From Anaerolineales bacterium (GTDB lineage Bacteria; Chloroflexota; Anaerolineae; CG2-30-64-16): a stretch of DNA of 36,544 nucleotides. Shown here one piece after another: positions 3,233 to 30,315 of the stretch. The stretch spans positions 1-36,544 of the forward strand of contig JADGQF010000010.1 of NCBI GenBank assembly GCA_017882045.1. Reading direction: 5' to 3'. The stretch's first letter is position 1. Each line of letters begins with the position of its first letter. Both the position numbers and the translations under genes were made by a program. The notes beneath the pieces are model-generated. The model did no database searches and was not told the origin of the DNA. It saw nothing but the letters and a program-made list of their open reading frames with translations.

Positions 3233-3233
3233 G

Positions 3234-5363: not shown

Positions 5364-5418
5364 AGGATGGCTCCCTGCCGAAGCGGGGAGGGATGCGAGG
5401 AGGGATAATTAATACCTC

Positions 5419-5787: not shown

Positions 5788-5806
5788 ATCAGTGAGGAGC
5801 ATGCCC

Positions 5807-7060: not shown

Positions 7061-7086
7061 ACTGTCCGTTTCGAGGAGACGCTCCT

Positions 7087-9402
7087 GTGCCGATCCCAGT
7101 ACGCATCCTGATCGTCGAGGATACGCCCGACGACGCCGAGCTGATGCTCTCGTGTCTCACAGAAGAAGGCTTCCAGCCGGACTGGACGCGGGTGCAGACC
7201 GAGGCAGATTACCAGGCCGCGCTCGCAACGGCCCCCGACCTGATCCTGGCCGACTGGTCGCTGCCGCAGTTCAGCGGCCTGCGCGCCCTGCAACTCATGC
7301 GCTCGGCCGGCCTGGACATCCCCTTTATCATCGTCTCGAGCAGCATTGGCGAGGAGACCGCGATTGATGCCTTACACCAGGGCGCCTACGACTTCGTGCT
7401 GAAAGACCGGCCGGCGCGGCTGGGGTCGGCCGCGCGCCGCGCGCTAGCAGAAAAGCAACTGCGCGAGGAGCGGCAACGGATGGATGAAGCCCTCCGGCAG
7501 AGCGAAGAACAGTACCAGTACCGGTGTGTCGCCGAGATGGCGACCGACGCCATCATCACGGCCGACGCGGACGGGCGGATCGTCGCCTGGAATCGTGCCG
7601 CGCAGCAGATCTTCCAATACACCAAGGCTGAGGCGCTGGGCCAATCGCTCTCGTCGCTGATGCCTGAATCTTACCGCGCCGATCACGCGGCAGCCATGGC
7701 GCGGGTAGGCGCAGGCGGCGAGCCGCGAGTGATCGGTCAAGCCGTCGAACTACACGGACGGCGCAAGGACGGCACGGAATTTCCGCTCGAGCTTTCGCTT
7801 GCAACGTGGAAAACGCAGCAAGGCCGATTCTACAGCGCCATCCTCCGGGATATCACCAGCCGCAAGCGGGCGGAGGACGCGTTGCGCGAGTCCGAATGGC
7901 GTTTTCGCGAGATGCTCGAAACCGTCAGGCTCATCGCAGTCGGACTGGATACCGCTGGCAACGTTACCTTCTGCAACGACTTCTTGCTCAGCTTGACCGG
8001 ATGGCAGCGTGACGAAGTGATCGGTAAGAATTGGTTTGAGCACTTTCTGCCGGACGATGTGCGGAACCAGACCGGGCAGGTTTTCCTGACAACCATTCTA
8101 ACAGGTAGTTTCCCGCCTTATTATGAAAACGAGATTCAGACGCGGCAGGGAGCGCGACGTCTGATCGGGTGGAGCAATAGATTGCTGCGCGATCCGAACG
8201 GCGCGGTCACTGGCACGAACAGCATCGGCGAAGACATTACCGAACGCAAGCAAGCGGAGGATAGGATTCGACGGCAGCTTGAGCATCTTACCGCCCTGCA
8301 TGAGATTGACCGGGCCATCACTGCCAGTTTCGACCTGCGCCTCAGCCTCGCGATGATTCTCACCCAGGTGACTGCGCAATTGGGTGTCACTGCGGCCTCG
8401 GTGCTGCTATCCAACCCGAGTTCCCAGATGCTGGAATTTGCTGCCGGCCGCGGCTTTCGCACTAAGGCGATCGAACGCACGCGGCTGCGTCCAGGAGAAG
8501 GCCATGCCGGCCGGGCCGCCTTAGAGCGTCACCTCGTCCAGATCTCGAATCTAAGCGAGCCGGGCAACCAGCTCACTACACCGCTCTTGGCGGAGGAGGG
8601 TTTTGTCAGTTATTTCGGCGTGCCGTTGATCGCGAAGGGAGAGGTCAAGGGTGTGCTGGAAATCTTCCATGCTGCGCCACTCGATCCCGATGAAGAATGG
8701 CTCGACTTTCTCAATGCCATGGCCGGGCAGGCAGCGATTGCGATCGATAATGCGAAGTTGTTCGAAGCTCTGCAACGTTCCAAGATTGAACTCACCCTGG
8801 CCTACGACGCCACCATCGAGGGCTGGTCGCGCGCCCTCGACTTGCGCGATAAAGAAACCGAAGGCCACACCCAGCGCGTGATGGACATGACGGTCAAACT
8901 GGCGCGCGCCTTCGGTCTGAGCGAGGACGAACTGATGCGGGTCCGCTGGGGTGCGCTGTTGCACGACATCGGCAAGATGGGCGTTCCCGATAGCATCTTG
9001 CTCAAGCCCGGCCCGTTGACAGACGAGGAATGGGCCGTGATAAAGCAGCACCCCACCGTTGCCTACGAGATACTCTCGCCCATTCGCTACTTGCGCGCTG
9101 CGCTGGACATCCCGTATTACCACCACGAATGGTGGGACGGCACGGGATACCCGTTTGGCTTGCGAGGCGAGCAGATCCCTCTCGCGGCGCGCATCTTTGC
9201 CGTGGTGGATGTATGGGATGCGCTGCGCTCCGACCGTCCATACCGCAACGCGTGGCTGCAGCAAGCGGTGACAGAATGCCTTCGCAAACAGGCGGGCACG
9301 CACTTTGACCCCCAGGTAGTCCCGGTATTCCTCCAGTTGCTGGCGACCGAAGATCTGAGCATGTACGAAGCCAAAGCGCACCTGACCAAGACGAAGGAGT
9401 GA
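7087..9402 (+). CDS. REC-PAS-PAS-GAF-HD-GYP c-di-GMP phosphodiesterase
   Basis: 771 residues from GTG 7087, preceded by GAGGAG at 7073-7078. Order: REC (about 5-120; E11/D12, phospho-acceptor D56, conserved Lys in FVLKDR), PAS (about 140-265, ending RDITSRKR), PAS (about 275-395, ending EDITERKQ), GAF (about 410-565) and HD-GYP (about 580-750). In the last, the metal-binding HD pair is H626/D627 in LLHDIGKMG, and HHEWWDGTGYP (679-689) carries the GYP signature. This predicts hydrolysis of c-di-GMP to pGpG or GMP. The receiver domain suggests activity gated by phosphorylation. The paired cyclase and phosphodiesterase could set a local c-di-GMP level for the pilus ATPases encoded downstream. 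Confidence 0.94.
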   Translation: MPIPVRILIVEDTPDDAELMLSCLTEEGFQPDWTRVQTEADYQAALATAPDLILADWSLPQFSGLRALQLMRSAGLDIPFIIVSSSIGEETAIDALHQGAYDFVLKDRPARLGSAARRALAEKQLREERQRMDEALRQSEEQYQYRCVAEMATDAIITADADGRIVAWNRAAQQIFQYTKAEALGQSLSSLMPESYRADHAAAMARVGAGGEPRVIGQAVELHGRRKDGTEFPLELSLATWKTQQGRFYSAILRDITSRKRAEDALRESEWRFREMLETVRLIAVGLDTAGNVTFCNDFLLSLTGWQRDEVIGKNWFEHFLPDDVRNQTGQVFLTTILTGSFPPYYENEIQTRQGARRLIGWSNRLLRDPNGAVTGTNSIGEDITERKQAEDRIRRQLEHLTALHEIDRAITASFDLRLSLAMILTQVTAQLGVTAASVLLSNPSSQMLEFAAGRGFRTKAIERTRLRPGEGHAGRAALERHLVQISNLSEPGNQLTTPLLAEEGFVSYFGVPLIAKGEVKGVLEIFHAAPLDPDEEWLDFLNAMAGQAAIAIDNAKLFEALQRSKIELTLAYDATIEGWSRALDLRDKETEGHTQRVMDMTVKLARAFGLSEDELMRVRWGALLHDIGKMGVPDSILLKPGPLTDEEWAVIKQHPTVAYEILSPIRYLRAALDIPYYHHEWWDGTGYPFGLRGEQIPLAARIFAVVDVWDALRSDRPYRNAWLQQAVTECLRKQAGTHFDPQVVPVFLQLLATEDLSMYEAKAHLTKTKE

Positions 9403-9406
9403 AAGA

Positions 9407-9718
9407 ATGGATTTCCGCGTCGATCAGAAAGGCAAATACTACACCGAGCGCGTAACTAAGAAGACGCTCCAGGTTATCATCGCGACCGCAACCAACATCA
9501 TCCGCGGCACGGTGCACGTCATGCGGAACTTGCGCCTCAAGGACGAGCTGAACAACGATGAGCGGTTCATCGCGGTCACGGGCGCCGAAGTATACGACAT
9601 GAGCGGCCAGACGCGTCTGCACAGCAACGAGGTGCTCCTCTTGAACAAAGACCTGGTTGTCTGGGTATTGCCGCAAGAAGAAAGCCAACCTGCCGATGAG
9701 GAGGAGCGCAGTGAATGA
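9407..9718 (+). CDS. Small protein of unknown function (possibly DUF6812-like) linked to pilus ATPases
   Basis: 103 residues, start preceded by AAGGAG (9394-9399). I do not recognise a catalytic motif. The sequence reads as a beta-rich domain (RGTVHVMRNLRLKDELNN, then RFIAVTGAEVYDM and VLLLNKDLVVWVLP) with an acidic tail. From memory it resembles short Chloroflexota proteins annotated DUF6812; this was not checked. It sits 4 bases after the HD-GYP gene, and its last 8 bases overlap the GTG start of the AAA ATPase, so translation of the two is coupled. It may be an adaptor or regulator of the ATPase, or a c-di-GMP responder. That is inference. Confidence 0.75.
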   Translation: MDFRVDQKGKYYTERVTKKTLQVIIATATNIIRGTVHVMRNLRLKDELNNDERFIAVTGAEVYDMSGQTRLHSNEVLLLNKDLVVWVLPQEESQPADEEERSE

Positions 9719-10997
9719 CCCTGGCCGCTGCCTGCCCGAGCCCCGTTCCATCGCGGAGACCGGGTTGAGTTTCGGCTTCCTGGTCGACCTTGTCCTCAAG
9801 GTGGTCTATTTTGCCAACGAGCTGACCGGCCAGGGAGTGGTCGATCATCTCAAGCTGCCGTTCGCGCACGTCGTCGAAGAATTGCTCGCGTTCCTGATGA
9901 AGGACGATATGCTCGCCATTACCGGGAGCACAGGCTTCGGCGAACGTGCCTACAAGTATGCTGTGACGAGCAAAGGGGTCGCCAAGGCCCAAGAAGTCCT
10001 TGCGCGTTGTCAATACGCCGGGCCTGCGCCCGTGTCGCTCAAGGCCAGCAGCGCGGTGACCCGCAGCCAGTCCATCGGTGAAGTCCGTGTCAACCAGTCC
10101 CAGATGCGCGACGGCTTCCAGCATCTTGTGATCTCGGACGAAATGCTGTCCCGGGTGGGTCCAGCGGTCAACTCGGCGCGTTCGATTTTCCTCTACGGCC
10201 CTCCAGGCAATGGCAAAACGACCATCGCGGAAGGGATTTCGAAACTCCTGGGTGGTACAGTCCACATACCCTACGTCGTAGAAGTAGACGGGCAAGTCAT
10301 CAAGGTTTTTGACGAGGTCAATCACAAGCCACTGCCGGAACCGGCTAGTACACCACCAGGTTTTGGCGCTGATCCACCCTCGCACGATCGGCGATGGGTG
10401 CTATGCCGGCGTCCCTTCATCGTGGCCGGTGGAGAATTGACGCTCGCGGGCCTGGACCTGGTGTTCGACCCCATCTCGAAAACCTACGAGGCGCCCTTTC
10501 AGATGAAGGCGAACGGCGGCATGTTGCTGATTGACGACTTCGGGCGCCAGCAGGTCAGCCCGCGTGATCTGCTCAACCGTTGGATCGTGCCGCTGGAGAA
10601 GCGCGTGGATTACCTGACCTTGCAGACAGGCAAGAAAATCGAGATTCCCTTTGACGCATTGATCGTTTTCGCGACTAATCTCGATCCATCCCAATTGGTG
10701 GACGATGCGTTCTTGCGGCGCATCCGCCACAAAATCCTGGTGCCCGATCCGACCTGGGAACAATTCCGCGAGATCTTCCGTCGCCTCTGCCCGAAGCGGG
10801 GCGTGGAGTACAGCCAAGAGAACCTGGAATACTTGATACAGGAAAGCTATCTGAAGGCGAAGCGCACACCCAAGATGGTTCATCCGCGCGATCTCCTTGA
10901 TCAGATTGTAGACGCAGCACGCTACCTGGACGTCCCGCCGGCCATGAGCAAAGACTTGCTCGACCGGGCCGTGGAAGCCTATTTTGTAAAACTGTGA
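9711..10997 (+). CDS. AAA ATPase with N-terminal winged-helix-like domain, pilus-cluster associated
   Basis: 428 residues from GTG 9711, chosen because it follows GAGGAG (9701-9706) with good spacing. Residues 1-125 look like a helical/winged domain ending in a linker rich in Ala/Ser. The AAA core follows: Walker A GPPGNGKT (163-170), Walker B MLLIDDFGR (D275/D276), sensor 1 IVFATN, and an arginine-finger region DDAFLRRIRHKI. A C-terminal helical lid follows. All nucleotide-binding residues are present. ATPases of this kind occur just before cpaF in several bacterial Tad clusters; their role is not established. Six bases separate it from cpaF. Confidence 0.85.
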   Translation: MNDPGRCLPEPRSIAETGLSFGFLVDLVLKVVYFANELTGQGVVDHLKLPFAHVVEELLAFLMKDDMLAITGSTGFGERAYKYAVTSKGVAKAQEVLARCQYAGPAPVSLKASSAVTRSQSIGEVRVNQSQMRDGFQHLVISDEMLSRVGPAVNSARSIFLYGPPGNGKTTIAEGISKLLGGTVHIPYVVEVDGQVIKVFDEVNHKPLPEPASTPPGFGADPPSHDRRWVLCRRPFIVAGGELTLAGLDLVFDPISKTYEAPFQMKANGGMLLIDDFGRQQVSPRDLLNRWIVPLEKRVDYLTLQTGKKIEIPFDALIVFATNLDPSQLVDDAFLRRIRHKILVPDPTWEQFREIFRRLCPKRGVEYSQENLEYLIQESYLKAKRTPKMVHPRDLLDQIVDAARYLDVPPAMSKDLLDRAVEAYFVKL

Positions 10998-11003
10998 GGC
11001 GCT

Positions 11004-12371
11004 ATGAGCAACCTCTTTGAGCGGGTGGCGCCCGCGCAGCCAACTGATCCCGCAGCCGTCTCGCGCCTGGCCGGCCCAGAGTCCGATCCTCTTGAATGGG
11101 CCCGATTACGTCGCTCGATCACTGACCGGATACTGTCGGGTCTGTCGGCGCCTGCCGAACTGAAGCGTGACGCTGAAACAACCCAGAAGGTGCGCGAGCG
11201 GTTTGTCGCGATTCTACAGATGGGCGAGCCGCTGGCGCCCGCTGCCGAAAAGCTGATGGAACGCCAAGTGCTGGACGAGGTGCTGGGGTTTGGCCCCCTT
11301 GAATCACTGCTTAGCAATCCGAGCATCAGCGAAATCATGGTGAACGGTCCACAGCACATCTTCATCGAACAGAAAGGGCACCTCACCGAGACCGCGGTCA
11401 AATTCGATGACGAAGCCCACTTGATGCGTGTCATTGACCGCATCATCCGCCCGCTGGGTCGCCGCGTTGATCGCAAGTCGCCGATGGTGGATGCACGGTT
11501 GCCGGATGGCTCGCGCGTCAATGTCATCATTCCCCCGGCTTCGATTCATGGCCCCACGGTCACGATCCGCAAATTCTCGCAGAAGGCACTTCAGATCGAG
11601 GACCTGATTCAGTTCGGCTCACTCACGCCGCGGATGGCCGAGTTCCTGCGAGCATGTGTCGTTACGCGGCTGAACACCATCGTCGCGGGCGGCACCGGCT
11701 CCGGCAAAACGACGCTGCTCAACGTTCTCTCCAACTTTATCCCCGACGACGAACGCATCGTGACGATCGAGGATTCTGCAGAGCTGCAACTCAACAAACC
11801 GCATGTTGTGGCGCTCGAAGCGAGACCGCCAGAAGCTGACGGTACAGGTCGCATCACCATCCGCGAATTGGTCACCAACTCTCTCCGCATGCGTCCCGAC
11901 CGCATCGTCGTGGGTGAGGTGCGCGGCGGCGAAGCTTTGGACATGCTGCAGGCCATGAATACGGGCCACGATGGCTCTCTGACGACCATCCACGCGAATA
12001 CTCCGCGCGACGTCATCTCACGTTTGGAAACGTTGGTGCTGATGGCGGGCATCGACTTCCCTATCAAAGTTGTCCGCGAGCAGATCGCCGGAGCGATTGA
12101 CCTGATCGTCCAGCAAGCACGCCTGCGCGATGGCTCCCGCAAAATCGTGAAAATCAGCGAAGTGCAGGGGATGGAAGGCGACGTCGTCGTTCTTCAGGAC
12201 ATTTTCCGGTACGTCGAGAAAGGGCTCGACATGAGCGGCAAAGTTGTGGGAGAGATGCAGGCGGTTGGGATTCGCCCGAAATTCACGCCGCGCCTGGAGA
12301 CCGCCGGCTTCAAACTCCCGCCAGAGGTCTTTAGCGCCGGTCTGGCCGACGACCGTAACCGGAGGCGCTGA
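11004..12371 (+). CDS. cpaF: CpaF/TadA-type pilus assembly ATPase
   Basis: 455 residues. A helical N-terminal region (about 30-100) precedes the N2 domain (LGFGPLESLLSNPSISEIMVNG) and the secretion ATPase core: Walker A GGTGSGKT (229-236), Asp box (RIVTIEDSAELQL), Walker B region (RPDRIVVGEVRGGEALDML) and His box (GHDGSLTTIHAN). It drives assembly of type IVc (Flp/Tad) pili at the inner membrane. The normal partners TadB and TadC are not encoded next to it; the next sequence is a broken histidine-kinase tail. The C-terminal extension (about 390-455) is longer than the core needs. Confidence 0.94.
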   Translation: MSNLFERVAPAQPTDPAAVSRLAGPESDPLEWARLRRSITDRILSGLSAPAELKRDAETTQKVRERFVAILQMGEPLAPAAEKLMERQVLDEVLGFGPLESLLSNPSISEIMVNGPQHIFIEQKGHLTETAVKFDDEAHLMRVIDRIIRPLGRRVDRKSPMVDARLPDGSRVNVIIPPASIHGPTVTIRKFSQKALQIEDLIQFGSLTPRMAEFLRACVVTRLNTIVAGGTGSGKTTLLNVLSNFIPDDERIVTIEDSAELQLNKPHVVALEARPPEADGTGRITIRELVTNSLRMRPDRIVVGEVRGGEALDMLQAMNTGHDGSLTTIHANTPRDVISRLETLVLMAGIDFPIKVVREQIAGAIDLIVQQARLRDGSRKIVKISEVQGMEGDVVVLQDIFRYVEKGLDMSGKVVGEMQAVGIRPKFTPRLETAGFKLPPEVFSAGLADDRNRRR

Positions 12372-12395
12372 GATACAGGTCAGCTATCTTTGTGA

Positions 12396-12608
12396 CACAT
12401 CGATCGGTTCTACCGGGCGGACGCGCGCGACAACCAGCAGGCCTACGGCGCCGGCCTGGGCCTCTACACGGCCCGCCGGCGGGTAGAATCAATGGGTGGA
12501 CGTATCGGCGTAACCAGCGAGCCCGGCCGCGGCAGCCGGTTCGCTACCACCTTGCCGGCACTGGACACTGCCGCCCGCACGACAGGTCAGACGAAGGGTA
12601 ACGTATGA
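12396..12608 (+). pseudogene. 5'-truncated histidine kinase (HATPase_c tail only)
   Basis: This frame opens just after an in-frame stop (TGA 12393-12395) and reads about 70 codons to TGA 12606-12608. Its translation is plainly the end of a kinase: IDRFYRADAR (F-box), YGAGLGLYTARRRVESMGG (G2 box) and the terminal strand GVTSEPGRGSRFATTLP. The phospho-acceptor, N box and G1 box are missing. It begins only about 25 bases after the cpaF stop. Its stop overlaps the start of the next response regulator by ATGA (12605-12608), which is the normal arrangement of an intact kinase-regulator pair. I therefore read it as the remnant of the cognate kinase gene, cut by a deletion or rearrangement. Confidence 0.85.
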
Positions 12609-13303
12609 CGAAGCTGCTGATCATCGAAGACGACGCGACCTTGGCCCGCGGCCTGGCAATCAGCCTGGAGTTGCAGAGCTATGAGGCCCGTGTGGCGGCC
12701 AACGGCGTGGCCGGGCTGCAACTGGTCGCCAAATGGCAGCCGGACCTGGTCCTCCTCGACGTGATGATGCCCGGCATGGACGGCTGGGAGGTGTGCCGGC
12801 GGCTGCGCGAGGTAGCAGACATCCCCATAATCATGCTCACCGCCAGGGGGATGCGGCAGGACGTCATCCAGGGGCTCACATGCGGCGCCGACGACTACGT
12901 CAGGAAGCCGTTCGACCTGCAGGAGCTGGAGTTACGCATCAAGGCGCTGCTGCGCCGCTCACAGCCCCAGAGGAACGGCGATGTCGACCTGTTCGATGAT
13001 GGTCGGTTGCTGATCGACCTGGAGCGTCGGATTGTGCTGTGCCGCGGGCAGCCGCTGCATCTGACCCCCACCGAATTCCGGCTGCTGGCCTACCTCGTAC
13101 GCCACATTGGACGGGTAGTAGCGCACGAGGAGCTAGTGCGCGCGGTTTGGGGGCCGCGCTATGCCGATGAGACGGCCAACCTGGGGGTGTACATCCGCTA
13201 CCTGCGGGAGAAGCTGGAAGAGACGCCGAACAGCCCGCAGTACATCTGCACGGAATGGGGCATCGGCTACCGGTTTGCGGCCGCGGCCAGGCAGGATTCC
13301 TGA
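12605..13303 (+). CDS. OmpR/PhoB-family response regulator
   Basis: 232 residues. Receiver domain with E8/D9/D10, phospho-acceptor D52 (LVLLDVMMPG), switch Thr in IMLTAR and Lys in VRKPF. A C-terminal winged helix (about 130-228) has the typical LTPTEFRLLAYLVRH, a recognition-helix region NLGVYIRYLREKLE, and the ending ICTEWGIGYRF. It appears intact. Its natural kinase is reduced to a tail directly upstream with a 4-base overlap, so this is now an orphan regulator that may be silent or driven by another kinase. AAGGG upstream (12595-12598 region) can serve as ribosome binding site. Confidence 0.93.
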   Translation: MTKLLIIEDDATLARGLAISLELQSYEARVAANGVAGLQLVAKWQPDLVLLDVMMPGMDGWEVCRRLREVADIPIIMLTARGMRQDVIQGLTCGADDYVRKPFDLQELELRIKALLRRSQPQRNGDVDLFDDGRLLIDLERRIVLCRGQPLHLTPTEFRLLAYLVRHIGRVVAHEELVRAVWGPRYADETANLGVYIRYLREKLEETPNSPQYICTEWGIGYRFAAAARQDS

Positions 13304-13488
13304 AGATCTCGGACCTCTCCGCGCGGAGCCATTACGTAGGTTCTTTAGGGAAGCTCTAAGACACAGGATCGCCGGACCGTGCTATGCTGGCAGCGTGGTC
13401 AGGCAACAGGACAGAGGTTGCGGCCACACATCCCACCCCAACAAGCGCTTTATGGGACTATAGCATTGTGCCGGGAGTGAAGTGGACT

Positions 13489-13902
13489 ATGAAACAGGTG
13501 AAGCAAGAATCTGGCCAGGCGATCGTGGAATTCGCGCTGACAGGGCTCATATTCTTGACCTTGCTCGTGTTCATCCTGGACGGGAGCCGGATCTTCTGGC
13601 ACTGCCTCACGGTAACCGAAGCGGCGCGCGTGTGTGCGCGCTATGCGATTGTCCACGGTGCGCATTCCACGGGGCCGGTCGGACCTGGCAATTATACGGC
13701 CCTGACCAACCAGATCAAGAGCACAGCCGTCGGCCTGGACCCAGCCGCCCTGACGGTGACCCCCACGTGGCCCACCGGCAATGGGTCTGGCAGCAGCGTC
13801 ACCGTGATCGTCACGTACCGCGTACAGCCGATCACTCGCTTGTTCTGGCCGGATCAGACATTTACGCTGAGCGCCCAATCAACGATGGTGATCCAAAACT
13901 GA
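13489..13902 (+). CDS. TadE-like pseudopilin
   Basis: 137 residues from ATG 13489. The in-frame frame continues upstream (ATG 13384), but TadE proteins begin only a few residues before the conserved GQAIVEFAL motif, which is at residues 8-16 from this start. A single hydrophobic helix follows (LTGLIFLTLLVFILDGSRIF), then EAARVCARYAIVHG, again typical. The rest is a Thr/Gly-rich beta domain with VTVIVTYRV near the C terminus. TadE-type minor pilins help assemble Flp/Tad pili and are processed by prepilin peptidase, which is encoded at 15875. No TadF or major Flp pilin was seen nearby. Confidence 0.8.
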   Translation: MKQVKQESGQAIVEFALTGLIFLTLLVFILDGSRIFWHCLTVTEAARVCARYAIVHGAHSTGPVGPGNYTALTNQIKSTAVGLDPAALTVTPTWPTGNGSGSSVTVIVTYRVQPITRLFWPDQTFTLSAQSTMVIQN

Positions 13903-13984
13903 AGCGCTATGTAGATTCTCGGCTCCCCAGCCTATAGCGGGAATGCTGGCGGAAGGCCACAGAATCTGGTAAAAGGGAACTGCC

Positions 13985-15874
13985 ATGCAAGCCACCGCCG
14001 TTCGACATCGTCCCGTGTCTCCCACTTTTTGGCGCGTTTCTGACATCATCCTGGCCCTTGCGCCCGTGCTCGCGCTTGTCCCTGGCACAGATCCCGATCT
14101 TTGGGGGCACCTGCGCTTCGGCCTGGACACACTCGCTGCACGCGCGTTGCCCGCTGTTGACTCCTACCAAGCCTTCTCTCAGGGCGGGCGGAGACGCGCC
14201 GCGGTGTCGCACGAGCAGGTGGCAACTGCGGCCCTGCGGACATTCCTGGAGGATGTCTTTCCGGCACTTCAACCGCCGGTGCACTGCCTGGACGCGCTGC
14301 CCGACACGGCCGCAGAGCCGCCAAGCTGGAGCAGCGTGGATTCGGCCGGCGCGGGGAGGGCTGAAAATCTGGCCGAGGCCGTGGTGCGCATCCAGGCCGC
14401 CGATGGCCCGGTCCTAAGCACCTCGGAGGTGCGGGATAAGTTAGCGGTCGCGCTGCGCGATCGCCGGTTCACAGCGAGCCAGCGGGCGACGCAGCCTTTC
14501 GTGTTCCGGCGGAGCGGCCTGCTGGACGCCCGATCCGGCGCCTGGACCATCCGCGACGCGGTCAAGCGCATGGGCCGTTATCCCCTGGACGGGGTCTATC
14601 ACCTTTATAATGGCACCCTGGAATATTGGCTGGAGGAGCAGGGCGCCGCCGACCTGGCAGAGCTGGCGCGGGTCGCTATGAACGAAGGTCGCGCCGACCG
14701 CCGCAAGGCGTTGGAGATCTTCTTGAGCGGTACGGGGCTGGTAGCGCGGCCGAGCCTGGTGGCGCGGCCGAAGGTCCTGGATATGGGTTACGCGATCACC
14801 GGCGAGACGATCGTGGGTCATATCCGCGTGAGCCGCGGCCAGGGGCGGGGCTACCTTTTCGGCACGATGAAGCCGGGCGCCCCGTGGCTGAAGGTGTGGC
14901 CGGGAGCGTTGGCGGGCGGCGCGGTGAATCTGGCTGTGACGGCCGATACGCTCCGGCTGCTGATCCGCACCGATCCCTACGAAGAGCACGTCATGGTAGA
15001 TTGCAGTGCGGCGGCCGAGCCGATCCTGCTGCCCGTGCGCGTGCGCGTGATGCCCAACCCGACGCCATTAAACCGCTTCCTGTTCCGGCCGTTCGTCGGC
15101 TTGCTACTGGGCCTGATCCTGGGGGTGCTCGTCGCCTGGCCGTGGGCGCGGGTTGCGCCGGCGCTGCCGGCGCCGCTCACCGCCGCCCTGCACATGGGGT
15201 CGGTGCTCGCCTGGACGCTGGCCGTGACGGCCCTCTGGACCCTCGCTGGACTGGTGAGGGGCCTGCTCCAACCGCGGCCCTGGTCCGTGCTCTACGCCGC
15301 GCGGGGTTGGCTCATTCGGTTGGCGCTCTGGGCGCCGGTCCTGGCGTTGGTGGGCTTCGGGTTGGCTACTTGGTGGCAGAACGGCTTCGGCCCGCCGGGG
15401 GAGGCCACGGGCTTGCTCCGTGCCCAGGCCGCGCTGGCTGGGCTGGTCCTGGCCACGGCGCCCGCCGCCGCCTTCTCGTTGCGCCGGCATCCCGCACCGG
15501 TGCTCGCGTCGCCTGCTCGCTTATTGTACATCGCGCCCGAAGACCCGTCGCCGGGGGCCGGAACGTTGTGGGTTCCGGAACATGCCCGGGAGATTGCCTG
15601 GTGTACGCTGGGGGTGGTCCTGATGGTCCTGGTGCTGGTCTTCGCACCGAGGCTGGCTCACACAGACTGGGCGGTGGTCGGATCGGAAGCCCCGGCGACG
15701 GCCGCGCAGAGTTGGATCGAAACGCGGTGGGGCGAGCTGAACACGGGCGCCAATGATCTGCTGGACCGGCTTTACCTGCGTTACTACGACCGCCGTGCGC
15801 CCTTGCCCCCCACGGCCGGGCCGACCGCTGTCCCGCAGGGGACGCCCACCCCCACGGGTGGCGGGAAGGAGTAA
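13985..15874 (+). CDS. Large membrane protein with kinase-accessory-like soluble region, possibly chimeric
   Basis: 629 residues, start supported by AAGGGA. Three zones are visible. Residues 1-65 contain one membrane helix and TDPDLWGHLRFGLDTLA, a motif typical of the N-termini of unrelated polytopic glycosyltransferase-like proteins (D-P-D-L-W-x-H-L). Residues about 140-350 have no membrane helix. They include HLYNGTLEYWLEEQGAADLA and a beta domain (VLDMGYAITGETIVGHI, then WLKVWPG and LPVRVRV) resembling segments that accompany bacterial Ser/Thr kinases or Hsp70-like proteins. No kinase motifs are present. Residues about 365-560 hold five or six membrane helices, and the tail is Pro/Thr-rich. 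It lies in an apparent operon with tadE and prepilin peptidase (zero spacing to the latter). Function unknown. Confidence 0.6.
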   Translation: MQATAVRHRPVSPTFWRVSDIILALAPVLALVPGTDPDLWGHLRFGLDTLAARALPAVDSYQAFSQGGRRRAAVSHEQVATAALRTFLEDVFPALQPPVHCLDALPDTAAEPPSWSSVDSAGAGRAENLAEAVVRIQAADGPVLSTSEVRDKLAVALRDRRFTASQRATQPFVFRRSGLLDARSGAWTIRDAVKRMGRYPLDGVYHLYNGTLEYWLEEQGAADLAELARVAMNEGRADRRKALEIFLSGTGLVARPSLVARPKVLDMGYAITGETIVGHIRVSRGQGRGYLFGTMKPGAPWLKVWPGALAGGAVNLAVTADTLRLLIRTDPYEEHVMVDCSAAAEPILLPVRVRVMPNPTPLNRFLFRPFVGLLLGLILGVLVAWPWARVAPALPAPLTAALHMGSVLAWTLAVTALWTLAGLVRGLLQPRPWSVLYAARGWLIRLALWAPVLALVGFGLATWWQNGFGPPGEATGLLRAQAALAGLVLATAPAAAFSLRRHPAPVLASPARLLYIAPEDPSPGAGTLWVPEHAREIAWCTLGVVLMVLVLVFAPRLAHTDWAVVGSEAPATAAQSWIETRWGELNTGANDLLDRLYLRYYDRRAPLPPTAGPTAVPQGTPTPTGGGKE

Positions 15875-16621
15875 ATGTTGGCAGCGTTTGGCCCCGGTCC
15901 GATTCTGGCGGCTCTGCTCGGCTGGCTGGCGGGCGGGGCAGCCAACTGGGCGGCCGACGCATTGCCTTCGCGCGGCGCGGTCGCTACCTCGGGCAACGGC
16001 CCTGCGATAGGCGCAGGGCTGTTTCGTAGGCTGGACGCGACGTTGCATTATCTGACCTTGCCGTGGTATCCGTTCCGTCGCGGCATCTGCCCACATTGCG
16101 GCGAGCGGCGGTCGATCCGTGCGCCGCTGCTGGAGGCGGCCGCGATCGCCGCCTTCGGGTTAGCGTGGTGGCGCTTCGCGGCCAGCCCGCTGCACCTGGC
16201 GGTCGTCTGCCTCTACGCCGCATTTCTGCTGGCGGTCCTGGTGATTGACTTCGAGCACCGCCGCGTGCTCAATGTCATGCTGGCGCCGGCCGCGGTTGTT
16301 GCGCTGCTCGTCAGCCTCCTGCCCGGCCACCCGGATCTGTCCCAGGCATTGCTCGGCGGAGGGCTCGGCGGCGGCATCTTCCTGCTGCTGGGACTGATCG
16401 GCCGCGGAGCCATAGGCGCCGGTGACATCAAGCTGGCGGGCGTCATCGGCCTGCTGACCGGCTATCCGCTGGTCATTCCGGCGCTGCTCTTGGGTGTCGG
16501 GTTGGGTGGCGCGTCGGCCTTGACCTTGCTCGTCACCCGTCGCGCCGGCCGCAAGAGCAGCATGGCCTACGCGCCCTACCTGGCGGTCGGCGCGATCGTT
16601 GTGTTGATGATGGGAAGTTAG
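15875..16621 (+). CDS. Prepilin peptidase (A24 family)
   Basis: 248 residues, start directly after the previous stop with AAGGAG as ribosome binding site. An N-terminal helix ends in GGAANWAADALP, matching the GxxxNxxxxRLP element. A zinc-type pair CPHC (72-75) is present, but the second CxxC pair of classical PilD is absent. The two catalytic aspartates of the A24 aspartic peptidases are D125 (VIDFEHRRVLN) and D184 (GAGDIKLAG). A terminal AYAPYL motif is also typical. It cleaves and may methylate prepilins at the inner membrane, probably the TadE-like protein upstream and Flp pilins encoded elsewhere. Confidence 0.92.
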   Translation: MLAAFGPGPILAALLGWLAGGAANWAADALPSRGAVATSGNGPAIGAGLFRRLDATLHYLTLPWYPFRRGICPHCGERRSIRAPLLEAAAIAAFGLAWWRFAASPLHLAVVCLYAAFLLAVLVIDFEHRRVLNVMLAPAAVVALLVSLLPGHPDLSQALLGGGLGGGIFLLLGLIGRGAIGAGDIKLAGVIGLLTGYPLVIPALLLGVGLGGASALTLLVTRRAGRKSSMAYAPYLAVGAIVVLMMGS

Positions 16622-16679
16622 GACGCCTCCTACTCTTCGGCTCTTCGGCGATTTGCCATTTGGGATGTGCCATCTGCCT

Positions 16680-17045
16680 ATGCCATACAATCCTCCCTCC
16701 CCAATACGTGTTGAAAACGTGACCCGCGGTGCCCCGGTCGTCGTGTCTGGACGCGTCGCGAGCACCTTCTGGTCCCGTTTTCGCGGACTGATGGGCGTCT
16801 CATCGCTGGCCCCCGGCGCGGGGCTGGTCATTGAGCCGTGCAGTTCCATCCATACTCACTTCATGCGCATCCCGATTGATGTGCTGTACGTTAACCAGGA
16901 TCACGTGATCGCCGGCATTGACCGGAACCTGCGGCCGTGGCGCATCGGCCGGTTCTATAAGAAGGTGCACTACGTAGTGGAGCTGCCTGCCGGTGGCGCC
17001 GCGGGATGCCAGGTGGGGGATCGCCTGCAGATCAACGGAGTGTAA
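16680..17045 (+). CDS. DUF192 family protein
   Basis: 121 residues from ATG 16680; TTG 16653 is a possible earlier start in the same frame. The DUF192 signature is complete: ASTFWSRFRGLMG, then GAGLVIEPCSSIHTHFMR with IPIDVLYVN, and the terminal VVELPAGGAAGCQVGDRL. The biochemical role of the family is unknown. It commonly lies next to prepilin peptidase or Tad genes in Chloroflexota and Actinobacteria (from memory), which fits its place here as last gene of the tadE run. Confidence 0.85.
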   Translation: MPYNPPSPIRVENVTRGAPVVVSGRVASTFWSRFRGLMGVSSLAPGAGLVIEPCSSIHTHFMRIPIDVLYVNQDHVIAGIDRNLRPWRIGRFYKKVHYVVELPAGGAAGCQVGDRLQINGV

Positions 17046-17201
17046 TGGACCGCTAGCGCGTCGAGCGCAAGCAGTTGGTGTTGAATGTATGCCACATGTA
17101 AGGAGAGGTTGACCGGACGGGGTTGATCTCGTTGGCGATGGCAGAAGTAGGGGCGAGCGCGTGGGGAGAGGTTGTAGGCGCCCGCGTCCAAGAGGTGATG
17201 G

Positions 17202-19445
17202 ATGGCAAACTATCAGCGAATGACCAAGGCAGAACTGATCCCGGCACTCCGCGGCCTTGAGGCCCAGGTGGCGTCGTTGGAATCCATCGCTGCGGAACGC
17301 GATCGCCTGTCGCACGAGCTCTCGGTCCATCAGATCGAGCTCGAGGCGCAGAACCAGGAACTGCGCGAAGCGCAGCGGCTGGTGGAGGAATCCCGCGATC
17401 GTTATGCCGACCTGTATGACTTTGCCCCTGTGGGCTATGTGGCGCTCGACGCCGGTGGGCACATCCAGGAAATTAACCTGACTGGCGCAAGCATGCTGGG
17501 TGTGGAGCGGTCGCGGCTGATTGGGATACCGTTCAGCCTATATGTCGCCAGGGGCGATGCCGGCGCGTTCCGCGAGCACCTGCGTCAGAGCGGGCAGTCC
17601 CAGGAACCTGTGACCGGTGAACTCCAGGTGGTGGTGAAAGAGGCGCAAGCGATCCGGGTGCAAATGGTGAGCCTGGCGCTGCGAGACGGTGGGGGAGGGA
17701 TCTCACGCTACCGCATCACCATGAGGGATGTCACCGCGCACAGACGGGCCGAACAGGCGCTGCGCGAAAGCGAAGAGCGCTTCCGCGCGATATTCGAACA
17801 GGCTGCGGTGGGTGTGTCGCAGTGTGTTTCGCACACAGGGGAATACGTGAGGGTCAACCGGAAGTACTGCGAAATCGCAGGTTACGCTCGTGAAGAGCTG
17901 CTGACCTGGAGATTCCAGGGCATTACACATCCGGATGACCTGGAGGCCGAGCTCAATCTCATGCAGCAGTTGATGGAAGGCAAGATCCGCACTTTCTCAA
18001 TGGAAAAACGCCTCCGTCGCAAAGATGGTGAAATCGTCTGGGTCAATCTGACCGTCTCTTCCATGTGGGCAAGCGGCGAAGAGCCCACGTACCACATTGC
18101 GATCATTGAAGACATCACCGAACGCAGGCAGGCGATAGAAGACACCAAGCTCCGCCTGGCCGAACTTGAACCGGTGAGCGAAATATCTACCACGCTGCGC
18201 GCCGCCCGAACCTTGGGCGAAATGCTTCCGATGTTGCTGGATCTAACACTGGAGGCGCTGCACGCGATGGAGGGAAGCATCTGGTTGTACGACAGTGTCG
18301 AGGATGTGCTGCGTCCGGCGGCCTCACGTGGGGAGAGTGAAAAGGATGGAACGTGTCCCCACCCGCTAAAGCCCGGTGAGGGGATTGTCGGCGCCGCTTT
18401 TGCGACCGGGCAGCCTCACTTAGCAGGCGATTTTCGTCTGGATCAGGGCGCATCAGAAGCGATGTGCCAGCGAATTCCGCCCGGCATTGGTGGAGCAGCC
18501 ATCCCAATTCGCGCCGGGGAGAAGGTAATCGGCACGTTCGTGATCAACGTGTCCTTGCCCCGGAAACTGACGCCGAGCGAGGTCCATCTCTTGACCACCC
18601 TGAGCGAGCTCGCCGGCACCGCCATCCAGCGCATCATGCTCCGCGAAGAGGTGGAGCGCCGCGCGGCCAAGCTGGAGCAGCGGGTGATCCAGCGTACCGC
18701 TGAGTTGTCCCAAAGGGAGGCCGCGCTCGAGGCAGCCAACGCGAAGCTCACAGAGCTCGATCGCATGAAGAGTCAGTTCGTCTCCAACGTCTCCCATGAG
18801 TTGCGCACGCCGATCACGACGATCAAATTGTATGCGTCGTTGTTGCGGAGAGGGCCGCCGGAACGGCGTGATCAATTTCTGGACGCGTTGGAGCAGGAAG
18901 CCAACCGGCAAGCCCACCTGATCGAGGAGATTCTGCAAGTCTCCCGTATCGACTCCGGGCGGCTCGATCTCCACTACGCACCCTACGCCCTAAACGACCT
19001 GGCGGAGGCATCGGTGGTCAGCCGGGAGCCACTGGCTGCAGAAAAAGGGGTGACGCTCGCCTGCAAGCCGCTCAAACCGGGGCCGACGGTGTCGGTGGAT
19101 CGCGTACGCACGCTACAAGTGATTGATAACCTGGTCGAAAACGCACTGTGGTATACACCGACAGGGGGACAAGTAAGCGTCGCCACCGGCACAGCCGAAG
19201 CCGATGGACAGATCTGGGCGACGTTGAGCGTGACCGACACCGGCATGGGCATCCCGAAAGACGAACTACCACGGATCTTCGAGCGCTTCTTTCGCGGGGA
19301 AAAGCCGCGGGAAATGCAGTTGCCCGGCACCGGCCTCGGCCTGGCAATCGTGAAGGATATTGTCGACCTGCACGGATGGCGAGTGACGGTGGAGAGCCAG
19401 GTGGGCGGTGGTAGCACATTCACGGTCTGGATGCCGCTCGCGTAG
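17202..19445 (+). CDS. PAS-PAS-GAF sensor histidine kinase
   Basis: 747 residues. An N-terminal coiled coil (about 10-75) leads into PAS 1 (about 75-190), PAS 2 (about 195-315, ending EDITERRQ) and a GAF domain (about 330-480). A second coiled coil ends in RTAELSQREAALEAAN. HisKA has the phospho-acceptor His532 in VSHELRTP (codon 18795-18797). HATPase_c has N-box DNLVENALWYTP, G1 DTGMGIP, F-box RIFERFFRG and G2 GTGLGLAIVKD. There is no membrane helix, so the sensor is cytosolic. An AGAGG element precedes ATG 17202. The next gene encodes a protein with a receiver domain, the likely phosphate recipient. Confidence 0.93.
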   Translation: MANYQRMTKAELIPALRGLEAQVASLESIAAERDRLSHELSVHQIELEAQNQELREAQRLVEESRDRYADLYDFAPVGYVALDAGGHIQEINLTGASMLGVERSRLIGIPFSLYVARGDAGAFREHLRQSGQSQEPVTGELQVVVKEAQAIRVQMVSLALRDGGGGISRYRITMRDVTAHRRAEQALRESEERFRAIFEQAAVGVSQCVSHTGEYVRVNRKYCEIAGYAREELLTWRFQGITHPDDLEAELNLMQQLMEGKIRTFSMEKRLRRKDGEIVWVNLTVSSMWASGEEPTYHIAIIEDITERRQAIEDTKLRLAELEPVSEISTTLRAARTLGEMLPMLLDLTLEALHAMEGSIWLYDSVEDVLRPAASRGESEKDGTCPHPLKPGEGIVGAAFATGQPHLAGDFRLDQGASEAMCQRIPPGIGGAAIPIRAGEKVIGTFVINVSLPRKLTPSEVHLLTTLSELAGTAIQRIMLREEVERRAAKLEQRVIQRTAELSQREAALEAANAKLTELDRMKSQFVSNVSHELRTPITTIKLYASLLRRGPPERRDQFLDALEQEANRQAHLIEEILQVSRIDSGRLDLHYAPYALNDLAEASVVSREPLAAEKGVTLACKPLKPGPTVSVDRVRTLQVIDNLVENALWYTPTGGQVSVATGTAEADGQIWATLSVTDTGMGIPKDELPRIFERFFRGEKPREMQLPGTGLGLAIVKDIVDLHGWRVTVESQVGGGSTFTVWMPLA

Positions 19446-19480
19446 ACTGCAGCATTTGATTGTCTAAACAAGGGAAGTGT

Positions 19481-20590
19481 ATGGACGAGCCCCGTATTCT
19501 GGTCGTCGAGGATCATGAACCACTGCGGGTAGCGATCCAGACCATTTTGGAGGCAGAAGGCTGGAGCGTCCTGAGCGCGGGGGATGGGCTGGAGGGGCTC
19601 GAGGTGATGAGCCAGGTCTGCCCTGACTTGATCCTGGCGGATATCATGATGCCGCGGATGGACGGGTTGGCATTCTACGGTGCGGTCCGCGCCCGCAGGG
19701 AGTGGATGGCCATCCCCTTCATTTTCTTGACTGCCAAAACGAGCCGGGAAGACGCCCTGAAAGGGATAGAATTGGGGGCCGAGGATTACATCACCAAACC
19801 CTTCGAGCCGGAAGAGCTGGTGGTCGCGGTGCGGGCGCGGCTGAAGCGGGCGGAGGCCCTTCGGGCAGTGACAGAGGCTGAGTTCGACCGACTCAGGCAG
19901 CAGATCATCGCCATCCCGCGTCAACTCCTGGAAGCACAAGAAGCCGAGCGGCGTAGCATCGCGCGCGAGCTGCACGATGAGATCGGCCAACTTCTTACCG
20001 GGCTCAGATTGATCCTGGAAATGGCCGGACGCGAGCTACCTGGCGCCCGAGCGGACAGTCTCACCCAGGCGCAGGCGCTGGTCGGCGAATTGCTCGCGCG
20101 TGTGCGCGAGATGTCGCTCCAGCTCCGGCCGCCGATGCTCGACGATTTGGGGTTGCTGCCGGCGCTGATGTGGCATTTCGAGCGCTCTGCCGCGCTGACT
20201 CAGGTGCGCGTGAACTACAAGCACATGGGCGTCGAAGACCGCCGCTTCCCGCAGGAAGTCGAAACGGCCGCCTATCGCATCGCGCAGGAAGCGCTGACCA
20301 ATGTCGCGCGCCACGCCCAGGTGATCGAGGTCACCGTTCGCCTTTGGGCTGTCCAGGAAATGCTCGGCCTGGAAATCGAAGACCGCGGTGTGGGGTTCGA
20401 TGCCGCTTCCGTGCTCGCCACGCATAGCTCCAGCGGAATTTCCGGCATGCGTGAACGCGCGTTTCTGCTGGGCGGTCAATTCACTGTAGAGTCAGCGCCG
20501 GGCAAAGGCACTCGGATTCTGGTCGAATTGCCGTTCGGTGGAAATACTATGAGGGAACAGCATGAGCGTGCGTATTCTGCTTGTGGATGA
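19481..20590 (+). CDS. Receiver-HisKA_3 hybrid kinase (NarX/DesK-like catalytic part)
   Basis: 369 residues from ATG 19481 (AAGGGAAG upstream; an in-frame TTG at 19460 is less likely). An N-terminal REC domain has E10/D11, phospho-acceptor D54 (LILADIMMP), Thr in FLTAKT and Lys in ITKPF. It is followed by a HisKA_3 dimerisation domain with phospho-acceptor His165 in SIARELHDEIGQLL and a small HATPase_c with EALTNVARHA, EDRGVGFD and SSGISGMRERA. A receiver in front of a NarL-class kinase suggests that its activity is controlled by phosphorylation from another kinase, most simply the one encoded upstream. Its last 29 bases overlap the start of its response regulator gene. Confidence 0.92.
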   Translation: MDEPRILVVEDHEPLRVAIQTILEAEGWSVLSAGDGLEGLEVMSQVCPDLILADIMMPRMDGLAFYGAVRARREWMAIPFIFLTAKTSREDALKGIELGAEDYITKPFEPEELVVAVRARLKRAEALRAVTEAEFDRLRQQIIAIPRQLLEAQEAERRSIARELHDEIGQLLTGLRLILEMAGRELPGARADSLTQAQALVGELLARVREMSLQLRPPMLDDLGLLPALMWHFERSAALTQVRVNYKHMGVEDRRFPQEVETAAYRIAQEALTNVARHAQVIEVTVRLWAVQEMLGLEIEDRGVGFDAASVLATHSSSGISGMRERAFLLGGQFTVESAPGKGTRILVELPFGGNTMREQHERAYSACG

Positions 20591-27850: not shown

Positions 27851-27882
27851 GAAGGTCTCCGGCTTAGGAGACCTTCTCTTTT
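27851..27882 (+). terminator. Intrinsic terminator of the LysM gene, embedded in the end of the convergent gene
   Basis: A 10-bp perfect stem GAAGGTCTCC / GGAGACCTTC (27851-27860 with 27867-27876), a 6-base loop and a following TCTTTT. It is oriented for the plus-strand LysM transcript. The stem covers the last codons and the stop of the minus-strand methyltransferase gene. Confidence 0.75.
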
Positions 27883-28640
27883 GGCGTGAAAACGCCGTAC
27901 AGGTTCAGGTTCCCTTCGTGGCCGTCGGCGTAGAAGGCTTCAACTGCTTCCAGACCCGCGGCATCGGCCAGGGCAACCAGGTCATCGAGCCCGATCGCCG
28001 CGCAATAGCGTTGCCCGGCGGCGCCTTGGCCCCACGAGAGCAGGTAGTCGCCCGGCTCAACTTCGCTCTCGCTGATGCCCGCGACGCGCCAGGGCAAGAT
28101 GCGCGCCCGCAAGCGCGTCGAGCCGAGGAACTGCCAGGTTGAAATCACCAGCTTGCCGGCGGGCGCCAGCAGGGATGCACAAGCGGCCAAGAAGCGCGCG
28201 CGCTGGGCAACGCCGGGAATGTGGTGCAACACTGCCAGCGCAGCGATGCACCCGAACGACGGCTCAAGGGCGGACGGTCCGGCGCCACCGGCCAGGCGAG
28301 ACGCCCAGTCCGGGCTGAGTAAGTCCGCCAGCACAAAGCGAGCGAGGGTTCCGGAGTTACGCCCGGCGCTGAGGCCGGCATTGCGGGCGGCAATGGCGAG
28401 CAGAGCCTCGCTTCCGTCCAACCCGGTGTAATGGCCGCTCCAACCATGTTCGAGCAGAAAGGCGAGCAAGCGCGCGTTGCCGCAGCCAAGGTCCAGAAGG
28501 TTGATAGCGGAGCGCATATAGGGTAGAATACGTTCGAAGCTGGGAGGCCAAGCACGCCGCGTGCGGGCGAAGTCCCCGGCAAATCTTGTATAAAAGGCAC
28601 GATTCAGCTCGGCAAGCGCCGCGCTGGTATTTGGATCCAT
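27864..28640 (-). CDS. Trm9/ALKBH8-like SAM-dependent methyltransferase
   Basis: 258 residues. The N-terminus FYTRFAGDFARTRRAWPPS (16-34) matches the hallmark 'F-A-x-x-F-x-x-T-R-x-x-x-W-P' preceding the SAM fold in eukaryotic Trm9. Motif I is LLDLGCGNARLL (48-59), the next acidic strand end is YTGLDGSE, and a later motif reads LAVLHHIP. The C-terminal part has GDYLLSWG, then GQRYCAAIGLDDLVALADAAG, similar in layout to the Trm9 tail with its RY-H and 'EL' helix. Trm9 methylates 5-carboxymethyluridine at tRNA position 34. The adjacent divergent gene is Elp3, which makes that precursor, so the same role is proposed here. It might instead act on another substrate. Confidence 0.75.
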   Translation of the reverse strand: MDPNTSAALAELNRAFYTRFAGDFARTRRAWPPSFERILPYMRSAINLLDLGCGNARLLAFLLEHGWSGHYTGLDGSEALLAIAARNAGLSAGRNSGTLARFVLADLLSPDWASRLAGGAGPSALEPSFGCIAALAVLHHIPGVAQRARFLAACASLLAPAGKLVISTWQFLGSTRLRARILPWRVAGISESEVEPGDYLLSWGQGAAGQRYCAAIGLDDLVALADAAGLEAVEAFYADGHEGNLNLYGVFTPKEKVS

Positions 28641-28641
28641 G
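28638..28641. other. Overlapping divergent start codons (CATG)
   Basis: The minus-strand ATG of the Trm9-like gene (28640-28638) and the plus-strand ATG of elp3 (28639-28641) share two bases within one CATG. Neither side has a strong Shine-Dalgarno. Each gene's promoter must lie inside the coding region of the other. Confidence 0.75.
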
Positions 28642-30315
28642 TCTCAAGTCAATTCGGATGCTACAAATTGGGTGCCGCGTGGGCGCGATTTTGACGTCCA
28701 GGCCCATCGCGCGGCTCTGCTGGCGATCTTCGAGGCGACAAGGTCCAGCCCCACCTGGGACCAGGACGAGATCATGCGCATCTTAGCACAGCACCCACGT
28801 GACAGCAAGGGCTATTTCTCGAAGATTGAGCTTGTGACCGGCTACCAGCAGTTGACGGCGGCCGGTGACTTACCTTTCGAGCGGCAAGTGCTACGACGCC
28901 TGCAGATGAAACCGATCCGCACTTCCTCAGGTGTGGCGCCCGTCACGGTCCTCACCAAGCCCTCGGGCTGCCCAGGGCATTGCATTTTCTGTCCCGACGA
29001 TGTCCGCATGCCGAAGAGCTACCTGCCGAACGAGCCCGGCGCCCGGCGCGCCGCGCAATGCGACTTCGACCCTTATCTGCAGGTCCGCACCCGGCTCGAT
29101 ACCTTCGACGCGATGGGGCACACGGCTGACAAAATCGAGTTGCTGATCCTCGGCGGCACCTGGAGTGCTTACTCTCGTCACTACAGAGAGTGGTTCGTCA
29201 AGCGCTGCCTGGACGCGATGAATTGGGAACCTGCCCAGGGAGACCCGCTGGAATCCCGGTCGCTGGCCGAGGCGCAGGCGATCAACGAACGGACGCGCCG
29301 GCGAAACGTTGGGCTGGTGATCGAGACACGCCCTGATTGGGTCACGCCCGCCGAAGTGGTGCACCTGCGACAACTGGGGGTCACGAAGGTGCAATTGGGC
29401 GTACAGAGCCTGGATGAGCGCATCCTGAGCCTGAACGAGCGCGGACACGGCGTGGCAGAGGTGCGGCACGCGGTCAAGCTGCTGCGCGCGGCCGGTTTCA
29501 AATTGCATCTGCATTGGATGCCCAATCTGCACGGCGCCACGCCAACCTTGGACCGCGAGGACTTCGCGCGTTTGTGGGCCGACCCGTGCCTGCGGCCCGA
29601 CGAGCTGAAGATTTACCCGTGCTCGATCATTGCCGGCACCGAGCTGTACCGGCTGTGGCAAATGGGCGAGTACCGGCCGTATACGGACGAGGAACTGATC
29701 GCCCTGGTGGCGGACTGCAAGACCCTCATCCCCCCGTACTGCCGCGTCAACCGGGTCTTCCGAGATATCCCGGCCGATGACATTGTAGCAGGCAGCAAGC
29801 GCTCCAATTTGAGACAACTTGTGCACGAGTATATGGCAGAGCACGGCCAGGCTTGCCGCTGCATTCGCTGCCGAGAAGTGCGCGCCGCGGCGGTGGATGA
29901 AGCCGAGTTGCGCCTGGTGGAACACGACTACGAGACCGATATCACGCACGAGCAATTCTTGAGTTATGAGACGGCCGGCGGCCAACTGGCCGGCTTCCTG
30001 CGCCTGTCATTGCCCCAACATGAGGCTGCCTCTCTTCCGGGCACCTCCGAAATCTGGCAAGCTCTGCCCGAAATCGCCGGCGCGGCGATGATCCGCGAGC
30101 TGCACGTCTATGGACCGGCCCTGAGCATCGGCTCGACCAGCGCCGGCGAGGCGCAGCACATGGGCCTGGGTCGACGCCTGATAAGCCTGGCACAGGAACG
30201 AGCACACCAGGCAGGGTTCAACCGCCTGGCCGTGATCTCGGCCATCGGGACGCGGCGCTATTATGAGGGATTGGGTTTCGAAAGAGACGGTCTGTATATG
30301 GTGGTCCGCCTCTGA
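28639..30315 (+). CDS. elp3: Elp3-type tRNA uridine 34 carboxymethyl-type modifying enzyme (radical SAM + GNAT)
   Basis: 558 residues, full length for the family. The N-terminal helical tRNA-binding part includes HPRDSKGYFSKIELVTGY. The radical-SAM core has the iron-sulfur motif C111-x3-C115-x2-C118 (CPGHCIFCP), preceded by the Elp3-specific TSSGVAPVTVLTKP, and continues with FDPYLQVRTRLD and ELLILGGTWSAY. A zinc-type motif CRCIRCREV lies about residue 410. The GNAT domain has RELHVYG, an acetyl-CoA loop QHMGLGRRL and the ending RRYYEGLGFERDGLYMV. Elp3 uses acetyl-CoA and SAM radicals to attach a carboxymethyl-type group to U34. The start could also be a GTG at 28672, but upstream residues are Elp3-like. 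Confidence 0.93.
   Translation: MSQVNSDATNWVPRGRDFDVQAHRAALLAIFEATRSSPTWDQDEIMRILAQHPRDSKGYFSKIELVTGYQQLTAAGDLPFERQVLRRLQMKPIRTSSGVAPVTVLTKPSGCPGHCIFCPDDVRMPKSYLPNEPGARRAAQCDFDPYLQVRTRLDTFDAMGHTADKIELLILGGTWSAYSRHYREWFVKRCLDAMNWEPAQGDPLESRSLAEAQAINERTRRRNVGLVIETRPDWVTPAEVVHLRQLGVTKVQLGVQSLDERILSLNERGHGVAEVRHAVKLLRAAGFKLHLHWMPNLHGATPTLDREDFARLWADPCLRPDELKIYPCSIIAGTELYRLWQMGEYRPYTDEELIALVADCKTLIPPYCRVNRVFRDIPADDIVAGSKRSNLRQLVHEYMAEHGQACRCIRCREVRAAAVDEAELRLVEHDYETDITHEQFLSYETAGGQLAGFLRLSLPQHEAASLPGTSEIWQALPEIAGAAMIRELHVYGPALSIGSTSAGEAQHMGLGRRLISLAQERAHQAGFNRLAVISAIGTRRYYEGLGFERDGLYMVVRL

Follow-up and report, generated by a model that had tools for sequence, protein, structure and literature searches.

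A head-to-head elp3–methyltransferase gene pair as a probable bacterial route to Trm9-type wobble-uridine modification

Side chains on the wobble uridine of tRNA are all but indispensable for decoding; eukaryotes employ Elp3 and Trm9 to furnish this base with a methyl ester. Side chains of the cmnm5/mnm5U type, made by MnmEG, are assigned to Bacteria, and those of the cm5/mcm5U type to Eukarya and Archaea (PMC7694415). Archaeal Elp3 has been shown to make cm5U from acetate/acetyl-CoA (PMC13315578); the genes of Elp3 and a Trm9 homologue are clustered in Sulfolobus solfataricus (PMC2584109), and an Elp3 with Trm9-like genes has also been predicted in Haloferax volcanii. For the yeast Trm9–Trm112 complex, the substitutions R29A, H115A, R241A, Y243A and N271A lower both tRNA binding and kcat, with R29, H115, R241 and N271 positioning cm5U34, and a Trm9 homologue or Trm9-like gene is stated to be undetectable in bacteria (PMC5372719). 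In a review, bacterial Elp3 is restricted to Dehalococcoides and its U34 product is regarded as unproven (PMC7663514). The acetyl-CoA-site residues of the Dehalococcoides mccartyi enzyme (DmcElp3) are K77, K193, E386 and Y441 (PMC6367351). The literature searched, which did not extend to subscription papers, contains no earlier description of Elp3 and Trm9 as a pair in bacteria or of their exclusion of MnmEG.

The window analysed here is the whole stretch of 36,544 nucleotides at the start of contig JADGQF010000010.1 of an Anaerolineales bacterium. It carries two divergent genes, described in a first-pass annotation of the sequence as a head-to-head pair whose start codons overlap by two bases, and both ORFs were found at exactly those positions (Table 1). 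We consider it likely that they form a two-gene wobble-uridine pathway that replaces MnmEG, in which Elp3 makes cm5U34 and the methyltransferase converts it to mcm5U34 (mcm5s2U34 in some tRNAs), although there is no tRNA chemistry to support this. Elsewhere, the window holds a protein with the Pfam GH3 N, middle and C domains (1622-3232), whose family is known chiefly for conjugating auxin in plants, and a run of sensor and cyclic-di-GMP genes (3177-20590; histidine kinases, GGDEF, PAS/HD response regulator) that surrounds a type II/IV secretion ATPase (11004-12371). A 629-aa ORF without a Pfam match (13985-15874) lies where the G+C content of the window is highest (0.70).

Table 1. Features of the elp3–methyltransferase locus, in window coordinates.
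Feature	Position	Strand	Remarks
Elp3 by its matches; radical-SAM/GNAT, putative tRNA U34 carboxymethylation enzyme	28639..30315	+	558 aa; TIGR01211 and PDB matches
Trm9-like class I SAM methyltransferase, predicted cm5U34 carboxyl methyltransferase	27864..28640	−	258 aa
CATG, overlapping divergent start codons	28638..28641		both ATGs inside; 2-base overlap
Elp3 radical-SAM cysteines C111, C115, C118 (CX3CX2C)	28969..28992	+	invariant in 24 relatives
Elp3 zinc-type motif C406-x-C408-x2-C411	29854..29871	+	invariant in relatives
Elp3 GNAT acetyl-CoA loop QHMGLGRRL	30154..30180	+	Q506, H507, G509, G511, L514 invariant
Methyltransferase N-terminal motif F-A-R-T-R-R-A-W-P-P, about residues 24-33	28542..28571	−	R28 = yeast Trm9 R29
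Methyltransferase SAM-binding motif D-L-G-C-G-N-A, residues 50-56	28473..28493	−	D50, G52, C53, G54 invariant
Methyltransferase H139-H140 (Trm9 H115-H116)	28221..28226	−	H140 94/94; H139 88%, rest Q
Methyltransferase R211-Y212-C213-A214 (Trm9 R241-Y-Y243-H)	27999..28010	−	R211 94/94; Y212 93%, rest F
Methyltransferase N246, probable Trm9 N271 equivalent	27903..27905	−	N in 85% of family

When the actual codons were measured, all nine genomes that could be assessed in the taxonomic family of the window were found to keep the in-frame CATG. Outside this family it occurs at only five loci (L018, L065, L073, L094 and L130), with variable spacing otherwise; conservation of the shared start is thus a feature of the one family and does not extend to the system as a whole. 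Divergent promoters would have to sit within the opposite gene, and a single weak promoter-like match for Elp3 is present at 28501–28529. Co-regulation of the pair through the shared start is not shown. It should also be noted that the methyltransferase codons for Phe16-Tyr17 (28590-28595), which hardly vary among relatives, read on the opposite strand as a stop in the frame of Elp3, at a distance of 45 nt from the shared start. This stop closes the Elp3 frame on its upstream side and explains why the value 45 recurs in the start-spacing measurements.

To follow the pair beyond the window, 60 whole genomes of its class were sampled. Elp3 of the window type is present in 29 of them and the methyltransferase in 27 of those 29, while none of the 31 Elp3-less genomes carries a window-type methyltransferase; all adjacent pairs are divergent. 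Two genomes (G018, locus L020; G030, locus L021) have a window-type Elp3 without a detectable window-type methyltransferase. A wider scan covered 84,980 species genomes with one SAM-motif pattern only, from which the best 80 loci were taken. Among these, the methyltransferase relatives belong to Chloroflexota, Myxococcota/"Deltaproteobacteria", Acidobacteriota (Thermoanaerobaculia, Holophagales) and Patescibacteria (Dojkabacteria, Pacebacteria). Elp3 adjoins 53 of the 80, in four phyla and always head to head on the opposite strand, and 25 of the remaining 27 genomes encode it elsewhere, so that 78 of the best 80 methyltransferase loci come from genomes with an Elp3. The conserved adjacency that the first-pass annotation proposed to look for across Chloroflexota is thus found there and in three further phyla, and divergent adjacency across all four is more than chance. 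Within Chloroflexota, the methyltransferase was found in 35/147 genomes, all of them Elp3-positive (Fisher 1.6e-24, uncorrected for phylogeny). Furthermore, the distances among 49 Elp3s parallel those of their methyltransferases (Mantel r 0.89, p 0.0005). Judged by pairing, co-occurrence and co-divergence, the methyltransferase is functionally coupled to Elp3.

In nine Dehalococcoidia-type genomes Elp3 is present and the window-type methyltransferase was not found; the class label is inferred from a single locus's near-identity to DmcElp3, its Elp3 matching 5L7J over the full length with 985 bits. These genomes had been taken to carry Elp3 without any methyltransferase, a reading overturned when four of the loci were opened: in 4/4, another methyltransferase of a second subtype stands head to head with Elp3.

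Genomes with the pair almost always lack the enzymes by which bacteria normally modify the wobble uridine. The window's genome, which is 99% complete, has no match over the cut-off to either mnmE or mnmG. Among the 60 genomes of its class, Elp3 (29/60) coincides with neither MnmG (17/60) nor MnmE (19/60). An even sample of 91 Chloroflexota genomes has Elp3 in 19 and MnmG in 41, with an overlap of 0; for the union of 147 the figures are 46 and 57, again with an overlap of 0 (Fisher p 4.6e-13). Outside the phylum, MnmG is absent in 21/22 methyltransferase-bearing genomes. These distribution statistics are uncorrected for phylogeny, and many of the genomes are incomplete MAGs. The absence of mnmE and mnmG, which the first-pass annotation had left to be checked, is therefore borne out for the Elp3 genomes of the Chloroflexota samples. 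Counting against the proposal is Desulfuromonas sp. SDB (G068, locus L100), the one genome seen to combine MnmG with both Elp3 and a Trm9-like methyltransferase; its methyltransferase has no adjoining Elp3, and it may represent a transition state or a mixed MAG/bin. That pair-bearing genomes of four phyla are almost always without the usual bacterial U34 enzymes suggests a largely overlooked alternative pathway.

Apart from this, 11/60 class-sample relatives have neither Elp3 nor MnmE/MnmG over the cut-offs (G012, G017, G019, G033, G042, G045, G049, G050, G052, G053 and G054); several are >90% complete, and G012, G019 and G049 are 97-98% complete. MnmA is present in 56/60 genomes of the class sample, the window's own included, and 2-thiolation is therefore probably retained.

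The Elp3 protein matches TIGR01211 with 504 bits (cut-off 350) over residues 83-558, the full rSAM+KAT length, and solved Elp3 structures in the PDB with E down to 1e-113. Its annotation as a full Elp3 is confirmed by the presence of the CX3CX2C motif, the zinc-type Cys motif and the GNAT region, all invariant in relatives, and the equivalents of the DmcElp3 acetyl-CoA-site residues (K165, K288, E487 and Y541/Y542 for K77/K193/E386/Y441) are invariant in 24 relatives. CX3CX2C is found in 99/101 bacterial Elp3 frames examined, both exceptions being frames of one split gene. As a mark of a methyltransferase-paired Elp3 this motif was dropped, the Dehalococcoidia Elp3 carrying it too. By sequence, then, the window protein is shown to be Elp3, and its formation of cm5U34 is inferred. 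The in vitro activity of DmcElp3 is very weak (PMC7663514), which leaves some room for an Elp3 that is no U34 enzyme, or that stops at cm5U, with the methyltransferase as a non-catalytic regulator or chaperone. We regard this as very improbable, given that the checked rSAM and KAT residues of Elp3 are conserved, that the methyltransferase has an invariant SAM motif and that MnmEG is missing.

For the methyltransferase, Pfam and NCBIfam return generic class I matches only. Its likeness to Trm9 emerges with family profiles: one built from 22 relatives and compared with 177,635 PDB sequences ranks Trm9 (5cm2_Z) first (E 1.3e-13; next best 8.8e-13), as does one built from 36 relatives of four phyla (E 5.8e-17; next best 1.3e-13). 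The alignment spans from the TR...WP motif to the C-terminal RY-x-H…E substrate region, whereas most other matches cover the Rossmann core only. The Trm9 likeness first noticed from the sequence alone thus holds for the family through its substrate-side motifs. The F-x-x-T-R-x-x-x-W-P signature on which it had been based is present in the window protein, but its W and P vary across the wider family, and only R28 and F24 are invariant (94/94). Four of the five critical Trm9 residues are kept in the window protein (R28, H139, R211 and N246); at the fifth, Y243, it has C213, and this position is mostly C in the family and not conserved as Tyr, which counts against the assignment. The equivalence of N246 to N271 is presumed from position, as it lies beyond the HMMER-aligned YlTrm9 stretch. 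The set R28, H140, W169, R211 and Y/F212 occurs in every type A, type B (window-type, Dehalococcoidia-type) and Trm9 row, and in 0/13 control methyltransferases of related genomes.

Searches with single proteins are less clear. With a single Trm9 sequence against 31 genomes, the four strongest matches are Elp3-linked methyltransferases (G027, G028, G001, G013). In the window's own genome, however, YlTrm9 does not have the window protein as its best match (E 0.87 vs 0.06), which counts against our reading. The AF2 model is confident (pLDDT 92.5), and in a Foldseek search of the PDB it places small-molecule enzymes on top and Trm9 at rank 44, although class I methyltransferases score alike, so that this ranking is non-discriminating. 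Together with the generic Pfam and NCBIfam matches, the Foldseek result is what can be said for a small-molecule or lipid enzyme that merely adjoins elp3. Such an enzyme would hardly be confined to Elp3 genomes in Chloroflexota and found with Elp3, even where not adjacent, in nearly all of the best 80 matches; nor would it be expected to co-diverge with Elp3 or to have its place taken in Dehalococcoidia by a separate Trm9-like subtype. We therefore strongly disfavour this explanation, which is barely tenable.

In the window's genome, matches to PF03966 (Trm112) score 22-24 bits and lie inside frames of 406 and 1073 aa. No convincing small Trm112 was found by this search, which counts against our reading; short Trm112-like frames do occur in some more distant Elp3 genomes. 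Hence the methyltransferase may work alone, its activity without a eukaryote-type Trm112 being an inference.

The Dehalococcoidia subtype carries RYY(H/Y)…E, also given as RYYH…GE, and its R24, H116–H117 and R211-N212 are invariant in the four loci. All five critical Trm9 residues appear to be kept on our reading of the alignment. A four-sequence profile has Trm9 as its second-best match (3.4e-19), aligned across the RYYHLY region, behind a match confined to the core, and the subtype matches the window family with an hhalign probability of 99.6%. In a tree with Trm9, as the first-pass annotation had proposed, the Dehalococcoidia subtype joins YlTrm9 at 92/84 on long branches. The sequences of the window subfamily form one clade (98/92), but the join of this clade to Trm9 is weak (38/53) and unresolved, which counts against the assignment; exclusive common ancestry of the two remains unproven. 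As far as sequences allow, the Dehalococcoidia methyltransferase is a second subtype, more Trm9-like than that of the window.

The coupling to Elp3 leaves the methylated atom unidentified. Conceivably, the methyltransferase follows Elp3 on the same tRNAs but methylates elsewhere, be it a different position in the anticodon loop, the 2'-O of the U34 ribose or a side chain that has been modified further, and yields an end product other than mcm5U; the replacement of Y243, the deep divergence of the window subfamily and its unresolved place in the tree would all allow for this. Nevertheless, conservation falls on the residues by which yeast Trm9 positions cm5U34 (PMC5372719), the profile favours Trm9 over every other solved methyltransferase, and the RYYH motif is kept in the Dehalococcoidia subtype. 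A different methylation is thus unlikely, though not to be dismissed, and we retain cm5U34 carboxyl methylation as the preferred reading.

In the proposed pathway, Elp3 would use radical SAM chemistry and acetate from acetyl-CoA to form 5-carboxymethyluridine (cm5U34). The Trm9-like enzyme would then bind the anticodon loop, with R28, H139/H140, R211/Y212 and N246 placing the cm5U carboxylate, and move the methyl group of SAM onto it as an ester, so producing mcm5U34. Through the MnmA thiolase, which is retained, Lys, Glu and Gln tRNAs would carry mcm5s2U34. Elp3 and the methyltransferase would in this way stand in for MnmE-MnmG; this physiological replacement, like the substrate and the product, is inferred. 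The two-step pathway suggested in the first-pass annotation is thus largely supported by the adjacency, the Trm9 profile and the absence of MnmEG, whereas mcm5U itself remains a prediction.

We further propose, with somewhat more reserve than for the locus itself but still as the favoured view, that MnmE-MnmG is replaced over large portions of at least four phyla of bacteria by a complete, Elongator-free two-enzyme mcm5(s2)U34 pathway whose methyltransferase comes in two subtypes. Wobble chemistry of the eukaryotic type would then extend beyond Eukarya and Archaea, and the coupling of Elp3 with Trm9 would either be older than the boundaries between the domains or have crossed them. The adjoining pair and its near mutual exclusion with MnmEG give a direct, testable answer to the role of bacterial Elp3, and the origin of the eukaryotic U34 pathway becomes testable as well. 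In addition, the pair can serve as a marker for the alternative U34 pathway, and the window methyltransferase as a model in which one protein carries out Trm9 chemistry, perhaps without any need for Trm112.

Taken together, the pair amounts to a new bacterial form of a known pathway, with good genomic support and a product that is biochemically undemonstrated. It shares with eukaryotic Elongator (Elp3) and Trm9–Trm112/ALKBH8 the Elp3 homologue, the Trm9-type R29/H115/R241/N271 positions and the predicted order of cm5U before mcm5U; it differs in being bacterial, in its head-to-head genes, in the change of Y243 to C and in the lack of a convincing Trm112. To our knowledge, no other Elongator subunits would be expected in the window's bacterium. 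The archaeal Elp3 and Trm9-like genes are likewise clustered, there with the pathway proposed for Archaea. Closest is the crystallised DmcElp3 (PDB 5L7J), likewise a bacterial Elp3 from MnmG-less genomes with a divergent Trm9-like neighbour, although that neighbour belongs to the second methyltransferase subtype, closer to Trm9. Finally, the bacterial MnmE-MnmG(-MnmC/MnmM) system fills the same slot, C5 of U34, with unrelated enzymes that are absent wherever Elp3 occurs in the sampled Chloroflexota.
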